From: Methanotorris igneus Kol 5 | GTDB lineage: Archaea > AGJL01 > Methanococci > Methanococcales > Methanococcaceae | Direction: 5' to 3' | Assembly (NCBI RefSeq): GCF_000214415.1 | Contig: NC_015562.1 | Location: 620,001 to 684,000, forward strand | Length of the DNA stretch: 64,000 bases | Notes under the pieces: model-generated | Database searches by the model: none | Seen by the model: only the letters and a program-made list of their open reading frames with translations | Told to the model about the DNA's origin: nothing | Shown: positions 61,300 through 64,000 of the stretch, piece after piece | Layout: every line of letters begins with the position of its first letter | Numbering within the stretch: position 1 is the first letter of the stretch | Position numbers and translations under genes: made by a program

Positions 61300-62463
61300 A
61301 TGTTTGATTTTGCAATAATAGGTTCTGGAGCAGCAGGAGCTACATTGGCTAAAGAACTATCCACAGACGCAAAAGTTGCCGTTTTAGAAAAAGGAGAACA
61401 CTATCCGAAATATGTAATAGAAGGGAATTTTGTAGATATTGCCTATTTGAATTCCATTGGGGGTTCAACTGTTTGTGCTGTAGGAAATGCTCTTAGAGTC
61501 AAAATAAAGGGAATTAAAATAGAGGATGAAATATATGAAGAAATAGAGAGGGAGTTAAATGTTAAAAGACCACCATACGAATTCTTAAGAGAATATGCAA
61601 AGAAATTTTTGAATCTTGGATTTGAGAGAACTCCAAAATATATAAACTTTGATAAATGCAACAAATGTGGAAAATGTGCACATAAACCATGTAACGCAAA
61701 ATGGACTGCTGCAGAGTTTATAAAAGAATCAAAGGCAGATGTTATTTGTGGTTTTGAAGTGAAAAACATTAGAAAAGAAGGTGATGTTTTTTATATTGAT
61801 GGAGTTGATAAAAATACAAACTCATTGAGAACCATTAAGGCAAAAAATGTTATTATTTCCGCGGGAGGAATCAATTCCCCAAGAATATTAAGTAAAATTT
61901 TGGATAATGAACATATAGGCAAAAATTTGTTTGTAGATACTTTTATTACCGTTGGGGGAATTCTAAAAGATACATATCTAAACAAAGATGTTCAAATGAT
62001 TGTTTATAAAAAATATAGGGATTTCATATTAGCATCTCACTACTCTGAATTGTTGTATAGTAGGATAAATGAGTATGAAAAAACCCGCAAAGAGGATGTA
62101 ATTGGAATAATGATTAAAATTAAGGATGAAAATGTCGGGGAAGTTGGAGAAGATTATGTATCAAAGCCAATGACAAAAAAAGACACACAAATACTTTCAG
62201 AAGGTGTTGGTGAGGCATCAAAAATACTGCACGAATTTGGCGTAGAAAGAATATACTCAACGATTCCAAGAGGTTCCCATCCTGGAGGAACATGTGCTAT
62301 TAAAAAAGTTGTTGATGAGAATTTAGAAACAGAGATTGAGGGGTTATATGTTTGTGACGCCTCAGTATTCCCAGAGGCACCAGGAGCTCCACCAATATTA
62401 GCGATTATTGGAATAGCTAAAAAATTGGCAAGATATCTAAAAAACGAAAAAATGGGTAATTAA
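61300..62463 (+). CDS. FAD-dependent GMC-like oxidoreductase
   Basis: About 387 residues. N-terminal FAD motif 'FAIIGSGAAGATLAKEL', a Cys cluster 'CNKCGKCAHKPC' (near residue 125) that could hold a metal or Fe-S centre, 'NVIISAGGINSPRIL' and the GMC-type C-terminus 'CDASVFPEAPGAPPILAIIGIA'. Substrate unknown; the gene ends alone. GAGGGA at 61290-61295 selects ATG 61300. Its 5' flank is the MITE at 61026-61283, so any promoter must lie in or beyond that element. Confidence 0.8.
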   Translation: MFDFAIIGSGAAGATLAKELSTDAKVAVLEKGEHYPKYVIEGNFVDIAYLNSIGGSTVCAVGNALRVKIKGIKIEDEIYEEIERELNVKRPPYEFLREYAKKFLNLGFERTPKYINFDKCNKCGKCAHKPCNAKWTAAEFIKESKADVICGFEVKNIRKEGDVFYIDGVDKNTNSLRTIKAKNVIISAGGINSPRILSKILDNEHIGKNLFVDTFITVGGILKDTYLNKDVQMIVYKKYRDFILASHYSELLYSRINEYEKTRKEDVIGIMIKIKDENVGEVGEDYVSKPMTKKDTQILSEGVGEASKILHEFGVERIYSTIPRGSHPGGTCAIKKVVDENLETEIEGLYVCDASVFPEAPGAPPILAIIGIAKKLARYLKNEKMGN

Positions 62464-62755
62464 ATTACCAAGTAGCATGATTTAAATTAAAATTCTAAAA
62501 AACATATAAAAAATTTATATGAATGGTTAGCTAAATGTTATAGTCGCTTGTGAAAGTTTTTCCGTCATAGTTTTTTATCACTACCTTAAAACACTGTATA
62601 AAACCATGATTGTGCAACACAACTTATTTAAATTTAATCTACAAAAAGACATCCAAAAGTGCAACATTTAAGGGGATATATATTTCCTAACCTTAAAGGA
62701 GCAAGGTTTTATGCACAATATAACAATATTACACACCTTAATGGAGGAATATACC
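62464..62755 (+). promoter_or_regulatory. Upstream region of the EVE-nuclease operon
   Basis: AGGGGATATATATTT at about 62671-62685 looks like a BRE-TATA pair, ~75 bases before the start. A lone MITE-type end TAGTCGCTTGTG is at 62541-62552 without a partner. Nothing else recognised. Confidence 0.4.
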
Positions 62756-63736
62756 ATGGCATATTTCTTAATTTCGGTATCTAACAAGGAGAATCTCAAG
62801 TTATGTATGAAGTACAAAATGGCAGGTTTTACCAATAGTGTTAATGGGTTCTGGACGTTTGTAGAAGTTGATGAGGGAGACTATATATCATTTCTTTACG
62901 GAGCTCGAGTTTACAATCTTTACAAAGTTATTAAAAAGGTGGTATTAAAAAATGCTAACAAATATGGGCCGTGGTCACCAATAACATTTAAGTCAGGAAA
63001 TACCTACTATTTTCCATTTAGACTACATTTGCAACTGGTGAGAAAATTTGAAGAGTCAATGGTTCGACAAGAGTTTGCATACGTTGCTGAAAACCTGCTT
63101 TTAAGAGGCGGATATCGAAAAACACACTTCCAAGCAGATGAGGTGACATTTTACCAGGTATCTCAAATGGGAGAAAAAGTTAATGATGACTCAAGAGATT
63201 TTGAATATTATCCACCAGATGATGTATTTACCCCAAAGATAACTTTCAATAATAAGTTGCAGGTTATTCCTGAGGTCTTCTCTTTTAAAGAACTAATTCT
63301 TCAATCGCTTGTTAGAAAATTTTTAAGCAAAAATAGGGACATTTTCTGTAAAATACTGCAAAAGATGGGCATTGATGGTAAACCCCAAGATTTCGAGATT
63401 TTAGGAGAAAAAGCATTGCCTGAGGGGCATGTAGATATTTTTATCAAGGAAAAACATCCAAAAGGGACATCCAAAAAGATTGTAATAGAAGTAAAAAGAA
63501 ATTCAGCCAAAAATGAAGATTTTGAGCAACTCAAAAAGTATATGGATGAATTAGGTAACGAATGTATGGGAGGTATACTAATAGCAAAATCCTTTTCTAA
63601 AAGACTTTCAATTCCACAAGAAAATATATTATGTTTAACATACAAATTTGAAAATGTTGGGAGAAACAATTTGTATACTTACGATGAACTTTTAACTAGA
63701 CTACAATTACAATTTTTAGAACGGTGGAGAAAATGA
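62756..63736 (+). CDS. EVE/YTH-like reader fused to a NucS-like PD-(D/E)XK nuclease
   Basis: About 326 residues. The N-terminal ~150 residues resemble the EVE/YTH fold that reads modified bases ('YFLISVSNKENLKLC', 'FWTFVEVDEGDYISFLYGA', 'YYFPFRLHLQLV'). The C-terminal ~150 residues look like the NucS/EndoMS catalytic domain: 'EGHVDIFIKEK' then 'KKIVIEVKRNSAKNEDFEQLKKYMDELG' (Asp and Glu-x-Lys). Such a fusion would fit a modification-dependent (type IV-like) restriction enzyme. GGAGG at 62743-62747 selects ATG 62756. The next gene overlaps by ATGA, so they are coupled. Both domain calls are by eye. Confidence 0.65.
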   Translation: MAYFLISVSNKENLKLCMKYKMAGFTNSVNGFWTFVEVDEGDYISFLYGARVYNLYKVIKKVVLKNANKYGPWSPITFKSGNTYYFPFRLHLQLVRKFEESMVRQEFAYVAENLLLRGGYRKTHFQADEVTFYQVSQMGEKVNDDSRDFEYYPPDDVFTPKITFNNKLQVIPEVFSFKELILQSLVRKFLSKNRDIFCKILQKMGIDGKPQDFEILGEKALPEGHVDIFIKEKHPKGTSKKIVIEVKRNSAKNEDFEQLKKYMDELGNECMGGILIAKSFSKRLSIPQENILCLTYKFENVGRNNLYTYDELLTRLQLQFLERWRK

Positions 63737-64000
63737 ATAAAAGAAAATTTCTTTTCTTAACTTTTGAAGGATTTACATACTCTCAAAAAGAAAGCATAGC
63801 ACCAGATGTTGAAAATATTCAAGTTATTGGATATTCAGAGGGCAAAGATGAATACGAAGCATTTAATAATTTTGTTTTAAGAAATTCCTGGATTTTAGAT
63901 ACTGGCTTCAATGAAATTATATGTATTGAAGTTAAACAAGCCATTTCAGAAGGAAAAAGATTTTATTTAGAAGAGTTCCGTAGCTTATCATCACAAAAGC
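63733..64000 (+). CDS. Unknown partner of the EVE-NucS-like nuclease, 3' end outside window
   Basis: 89 residues are visible, open to the window edge. It starts 'MNKRKFLFLTFEGFTYSQK' and is preceded by GGTGGA; the ATG overlaps the previous stop by 4 bases. Visible text includes 'FNEIICIEVKQAISEGKRFYLEEF'. Family not recognised. Tight coupling suggests a shared function with the nuclease. Confidence 0.6.
   Translation, partial: MNKRKFLFLTFEGFTYSQKESIAPDVENIQVIGYSEGKDEYEAFNNFVLRNSWILDTGFNEIICIEVKQAISEGKRFYLEEFRSLSSQK

Follow-up and report, generated by a model that had tools for sequence, protein, structure and literature searches.

A putative modification-dependent endonuclease of Methanotorris igneus, its small partner gene, and the broken methyltransferase operons beside its relatives

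Does the pair of overlapping genes at the right-hand edge of the DNA analysed here encode a restriction system directed against modified DNA, and to what extent would such a system be new? The window, a stretch of 64,000 nucleotides, corresponds to C1:620001-684000 of the single-contig, 1,854,197-bp genome of Methanotorris igneus Kol 5. It had been predicted that the first gene (gene 1) fuses an EVE/YTH-like base-reader domain to a NucS-like PD-(D/E)XK domain, that it overlaps a second gene (gene 2) by four bases, and that the two may form a new defence unit. The overlap was found as described, as a 4-bp ATGA junction, and extension of the sequence to the right completed gene 2 as a 94-aa reading frame (Table 1). 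The homologues align from 62756 onwards, which makes a longer gene 1 reading frame with its start at 62711 unlikely.

Table 1 Features of the M. igneus locus and remains of methyltransferase operons at related loci (positions refer to the window unless a contig is given)
Feature	Position	Strand	Basis or remark
Duplication, left copy (oxidoreductase gene 3' end and the sequence behind it)	62102..62558	+	
GGAGG, ribosome-binding-site-like, 5' of the gene 1 ATG	62743..62747	+	Sequence
Gene 1, predicted EVE/YTH-like reader and NucS-type PD-(D/E)XK nuclease, 326 aa	62756..63736	+	ORF, homologue alignment, model, fold search
Gene 1 codons	start ATG 62756; stop TGA 63734-63736	+	ORF
Predicted EVE/YTH-like (PUA superfamily) domain, residues ~1-150	62756..63205	+	Fold match only, with conservation; no Pfam match
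PD-(D/E)XK nuclease domain, residues ~175-320	63278..63715	+	Pfam, fold search, invariant residues
Gene 2, small partner, 94 aa	63733..64000	+	Genome sequence; start ATG 63733; runs 17 bp past the window edge to C1:684017
Right copy of the duplication, internally deleted	C1:684178-684420		Beyond the window
L011	methyltransferase residues 1-244; DpnII from residue 81		Gene 1 and gene 2 lie between the two pieces
L026 (G031)	methyltransferase residues 10-110; DpnII from 184		Cassette lies between the two pieces
L017	methyltransferase residues 40-196		
L034	methyltransferase residues 8-275		Internal stop
L042	methyltransferase from residue 47		
L060	methyltransferase residues 47-196		Gene 1 broken too
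L056	methyltransferase from residue 235		
L022, L028			Only the gene downstream of the methyltransferase left

The nuclease half of the original prediction held. Residues 197-282 of the gene 1 protein match PF01939 (NucS_C/Mrr-type nuclease) in Pfam at 1.2e-5, just above its cut-off. The NCBIfam model of NucS gives 5e-8 with the C-terminal domain alone aligning, and its 32.2 bits do not reach the equivalog cut-off of 216; the N-terminal domain of NucS is missing from gene 1. The Pfam search gave no match of gene 1 to PF06044 (DpnI). An alignment of 50 homologues contains 47 invariant columns, so that the observation is not due to chance, and the invariant residues D227, E245, K247, Q258 and Y262 (D-ExK-QxxxY) sit in the stretch that aligns with the NucS active site. 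The C-terminus of an AlphaFold2 model built from these 50 homologues (pLDDT 93.9, pTM 0.92) matches EndoMS/NucS in Foldseek; the modification-dependent enzymes AspBHI and MspJI match the whole chain more weakly, with a low TM-score, and a fold search of viral structures returned partial-domain matches only.

The reader half was borne out by the fold of the model. For the N-terminal 142 residues no convincing sequence match was obtained, none of 34 aligned N-terminal domains matches PF01878 (EVE) or a YTH model in Pfam, and the sole PF01878 match in the M. igneus genome lies elsewhere. In the predicted structure, MJECL36 (2p5d) is the top Foldseek match of the N-terminus (7e-6), and many YTH domains, for example those of Mmi1 and YTHDC1, match it with probability 1.00. 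Within the reader domain, the 50 aligned homologues share two invariant tryptophans (W33 and W73) and an invariant block, R117-GGYRKTH-F125. By its modelled fold alone, the domain is assigned to the EVE/YTH type of the PUA superfamily, and gene 1 as modelled has the fusion of a reader domain to a nuclease domain by which type IV enzymes are recognised.

Among 36 genomes searched in the phylum, the pair is present in two, both Methanococci, where gene 1 and gene 2 strictly co-occur and are 57% and 54% identical between the carriers. When 84,980 species genomes were scanned, 67 loci were obtained, 62 of them with gene 1, spread over many archaeal and bacterial groups; since the scan used two short motifs, these counts underestimate the occurrence of gene 1. 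Masked helper rows with plausible substitutions (A3-A7) were added to the query alignments and shaped the scan patterns only: every match was confirmed against real sequence, and the helper rows were absent from later analyses. Tree neighbours belong to different phyla, which argues for horizontal transfer. Searches of plasmid, phage and IMG/VR sequences gave no relatives, and thus no plasmid or viral carrier was identified.

In many of the relatives, the gene adjoining the cassette is for an amino-methyltransferase (PF01555) that bears an HPPY motif. Intact operons of this type carry a DpnII-family endonuclease as partner at L127 and L163 (PF04556, 2.5e-70 and 1e-70); at L128 and L164 the methyltransferase is followed by other genes, probably alternative endonucleases, without gene 1. 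Of the 62 gene 1 loci, 10 abut broken pieces of such restriction-modification operons. The pieces end 0-60 bp from the cassette at nine loci (L011, L017, L022, L026, L028, L034, L042, L056 and L060), and at L045 C-terminal pieces of the methyltransferase lie about 0.2 kb away. Some breakpoints may share an origin, as L017 and L060 both end at residue 196. Within one genus of the Methanothermococcus group, L163 has the intact methyltransferase and DpnII genes and L026 has the cassette within the same pair, with 80-85% DNA identity on both sides of a 1,273-bp insert that begins at the gene 1 ATG. Fourteen close homologues of the HPPY methyltransferase were found in 92 Mb, 10 of them beside the cassette against about 0.008 expected. 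Where gene 1 is intact and the state of the adjacent methyltransferase is known, the latter is broken in 7 of 7 cases, compared with 3 of 10 in other places (Fisher p 0.006, a guide only, given that the groups were drawn up with the data already in view and that the loci lack phylogenetic independence). The methyltransferase adjacent to gene 1 at L064 is intact, and gene 1 there has lost the nuclease domain. Three new gene 1 loci came from a further archaeal class; in this class, L178 holds a broken, inverted gene 1 flanked by an N-terminal fragment of the methyltransferase and a fragment of the downstream gene, and L174 a weak candidate for a methyltransferase remnant (E 0.08).

Gene 2 has no Pfam match, DpnD/PcfM (PF14207) included; family and fold searches gave no match, and its model has no structural match. 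It lies directly 3' of gene 1 in 16 of the 62 loci, mostly with a 4-bp overlap, and is restricted to one fully supported clade of 24 in the gene 1 tree (15/24). An obligate two-gene unit was therefore rejected, and since gene 2 is found at so few loci and in one clade, gene 1 is regarded as the core of the system. Of the suggested new defence unit there remain a conserved, coupled second gene and a likely role in modification-dependent restriction; conservation of the pair across genomes is real at those 16 loci, but gene 2 is missing at the other 46. Homologues of gene 2 also occur 3' of a DpnI enzyme at L072 and, at L073, 3' of a PLD enzyme with a DpnI-type winged helix (PLD + DpnI_C); winged-helix fusion classes sense Gm6ATC (PMC11037411). 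At L137 a genuine DpnD lies 3' of a different DpnI. Thus placed, as DpnD is behind DpnI, the product of gene 2 would most likely be a small accessory protein of the endonuclease, which probably binds or modulates the nuclease. As a general partner of DpnI, gene 2 was discarded: in sampled genomes of the phylum of the L072 organism, 1 of about 9 well-matched DpnI genes has it. A further homologue, at L105 in a sampled genome from the phylum of the L073 organism, stands 3' of an HNH endonuclease gene.

The domains, the conservation of the active site, the mobility and the broken methyltransferase genes are matters of computation; we infer cleavage, the modified base, the sequence specificity and the role of gene 2. 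A likely explanation of the locus is that gene 1 encodes a modification-dependent (type IV-like) endonuclease which reads the mark set by HPPY methyltransferases and becomes established where the methyltransferase has been lost, with gene 2 as an accessory. A methylated base would be flipped out and recognised by the EVE/YTH domain, and the PD-(D/E)XK domain would cleave the DNA close by. Any cell that makes this mark would have its own chromosome cut, so that the enzyme would gain a foothold chiefly in hosts that lack the methyltransferase or have lost it, and in many lineages it would physically replace part of the methyltransferase operon. The mark would most likely be the product of the HPPY amino-methyltransferases, plausibly N6-methyladenine in GATC, with an action resembling that of DpnI; pointing in this direction are the pairing of the methyltransferase with DpnII, the YTH-like nature of the reader and the gene 2 homologues at L072 and L073. 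This target is deduced from association, and the specificity of the HPPY methyltransferase solely from its DpnII partner, so that the enzyme could plausibly make another amino-methyl mark. The M. igneus genome has no HPPY methyltransferase and no D12 methyltransferase above the cut-off. D12 methyltransferases are absent from the two gene 1 carriers; this is consistent with the explanation but uninformative, because most relatives also lack full-length ones. Evidence against the explanation comes from L055 and apparently L052, with a different methyltransferase directly before gene 1, and from two MAG bins in which both genes occur.

It is conceivable, though we consider it unlikely, that gene 1 depends on a different modification (5mC, 5hmC, 4mC or a phage hypermodification) and that HPPY operons are only a preferred site of landing, restriction loci being insertion hotspots. 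YTH domains are readers of 6mA (PMC11037411), but a YTH-like fold does not prove m6A as the target, since EVE domains read 5mC and 5hmC and are predicted to read mostly modified cytosines (PMC7641849). Methyltransferase remains are absent at most gene 1 loci, the one in M. igneus included, and in two MAG bins (G041 and G052) an intact HPPY methyltransferase occurs together with an intact gene 1. The flanks in G041 differ in GC (0.48 vs 0.37), and mis-binning is a possible cause of the co-occurrence there; a published case of such a conflict shows that the two can coexist if the nuclease is silenced (PMC8989522). A mere hotspot does not readily account for one methyltransferase family being struck repeatedly, with HPPY operons affected in each of the two clades into which the gene 1 tree falls, nor for gene 2 also standing behind enzymes of the Gm6ATC-sensing classes.

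An ordinary type II endonuclease, acting on unmethylated DNA and accompanied by methyltransferases that are the decaying halves of former pairs, is a less probable identity for gene 1. At about ten loci the neighbour of gene 1 is an HPPY methyltransferase, and at L055 a different (DPPY) methyltransferase lies about 12 bp 5' of an intact gene 1, as it does at L052 as far as the contig shows; among the relatives, these two are the only places where an intact non-HPPY methyltransferase precedes gene 1, the second of them apparently so. However, loss of the methyltransferase should make such a cutter lethal to its host, whereas in all seven scorable cases an intact gene 1 lies beside the broken HPPY gene. 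Where HPPY operons are intact, the methyltransferase is partnered by DpnII or by one of two unnamed genes, and gene 1 is absent; the fragments stop at the borders of the cassette, the DpnII gene is truncated too, and a PUA-type reader domain is unexpected in a type II enzyme. Beside the M. igneus pair there is no intact cognate methyltransferase, as a type II system would have.

The order of the two genes, with gene 2 second and the 4-bp overlap, their strict co-occurrence in the two Methanococci and the retention of gene 2 at L070, where gene 1 is degraded, would also fit a toxin-antitoxin-like pair in which gene 2 restrains the nuclease; we think this improbable, as no dedicated antidote is needed at the 46 loci without gene 2, and gene 2 is also found behind unrelated nucleases. 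A role for gene 1 as a mismatch or DNA repair nuclease akin to NucS/EndoMS, to which its nuclease domain is closest by sequence, is hardly credible given a score far below the NucS equivalog cut-off, a different N-terminal domain, and a patchy, horizontally spread distribution beside restriction genes.

If gene 1 is taken as a modification-dependent endonuclease, its architecture is a known one, because putative type IV restriction endonucleases of an EVE-PD(D/E)XK class were catalogued in 2020 by Bell, Wolf and Koonin (PMC7641849), with the same core architecture and the same predicted role in modification-dependent restriction. The pairing of domains, which the original prediction did not recognise, was therefore already described, whereas the conserved second gene adds to it. 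The part of that catalogue considered here names no such family; compared with the class, the reader of gene 1 is invisible to the Pfam EVE and YTH models, and the partner gene and the displacement of methyltransferases are additional. The closest parallel in way of life is that of DpnI and drg (PF06044). DpnI and DpnII alternate at one chromosomal place (PMC3573125), and in Neisseria drg is inserted in dam, which it truncates, among copies of leuS (PMC4269198). In these systems too, a methylation-dependent cutter occupies the place where a methyltransferase otherwise sits, and a small partner gene follows, but the reader is a winged helix instead of an EVE/YTH-like domain, and the displaced gene is a D12-class Dam instead of an HPPY methyltransferase. 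NucS/EndoMS shares with gene 1 the C-terminal nuclease domain with aligned active-site residues, but differs in its N-terminal domain and is a housekeeping enzyme, unlike the sporadic and mobile gene 1. MspJI and AspBHI likewise combine a PUA-superfamily reader and a PD-(D/E)XK nuclease in one chain; their reader, however, is of the SRA type, for 5mC, and the TM-score over the whole gene 1 chain is low. The YTH-type McrB of Thermococcus gammatolerans and MJECL36 have a prokaryotic YTH-like reader fold in common with the gene 1 model, but McrBC is an NTPase-driven two-subunit machine, whereas gene 1 has its own nuclease and no NTPase.

In the open-access subset of the literature, no report was found of a partner gene shared with DpnI-type enzymes, of recurrent HPPY displacement in both domains of life, or of a before/after pair. 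A bolder claim would be that gene 1 represents an endonuclease family not described before, dependent on N6-methyladenine and equipped with a YTH-like reader, a second and unrelated DpnI, carried by a cassette of about 1.2 kb that moves between bacteria and archaea, repeatedly overwrites HPPY/DpnII-type operons and brings a small partner common to several unrelated methylation-dependent nucleases; this we put forward tentatively, with slightly more doubt than conviction. If true, displacement of a methyltransferase by the cutter of its mark has recurred with a differently built enzyme in several archaeal and bacterial lineages, and gene 2 is a partner common to unrelated methylation-dependent nucleases. 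The broken methyltransferase would then reveal the target of the enzyme, so that type IV specificity becomes predictable from the wreckage in a genome, and a YTH-like reader in DNA defence would bear on the proposed prokaryotic origin of the eukaryotic m6A readers (PMC8868631).

The M. igneus pair itself forms an island of about 1.6 kb between an oxidoreductase gene and a second copy of the 3' end of that gene, the flanking duplicated pieces being 97% and 87% identical. Pieces of ileS, the best of them 95% identical, bracket the G031 island in the same manner, and in the sister species synteny is broken at the region matching the M. igneus island. One known way in which restriction-modification genes move is by insertion accompanied by a long target duplication; the island may well have entered M. 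igneus in this way beside the oxidoreductase gene. As a general trait of the loci, long target duplication was not upheld, being detected at 2 of 42 testable loci.

In the second clade of the gene 1 tree, other small co-directional reading frames lie 3' of gene 1. Three recurrent sets were found (L043:6982-7209, L044:2171-2374 and L174:2485-2718; L040:1716-2045, L041:1993-2322 and L027:6978-7250; L024:1925-2191 and L034:4024-4281), and these are possible alternative partners. In Caldicoprobacter (L014 and L047:5165-5989), the gene 11 bp 5' of gene 1 encodes a 274-aa product with cysteines resembling a zinc ribbon and what may be a PD-(D/E)XK motif. The DPPY methyltransferases directly 5' of gene 1 (L052:61-777 and L055:4834-5964) have a C-terminal extension. 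The families downstream of the HPPY methyltransferase at L164:4481-5961 and L128:1459-3050, of 190 and 218 aa and without Pfam match, are possibly uncharacterised restriction endonucleases. The bin of the L073 organism contains, in a row at L130:2949-5847, a Dam-family D12 methyltransferase, a 432-aa gene and an HPPY methyltransferase, although the PLD + DpnI_C enzyme there is expected to cut Gm6ATC.

Word counts gave a few further observations. In the window (1-64000), GATC is depleted (40 seen vs 168 expected, ratio 0.24) despite the missing HPPY and above-cut-off D12 methyltransferases; short stretches of G031 and G003 show little GATC depletion. GCGC is also depleted in the window (2 vs 21), and CTAG strongly so (4 vs 91). 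Avoidance of CTAG might relate to an intact SPPY-type amino-methyltransferase at L150 (G000:C1 around 1833000), which is overlapped downstream by a possible endonuclease gene.
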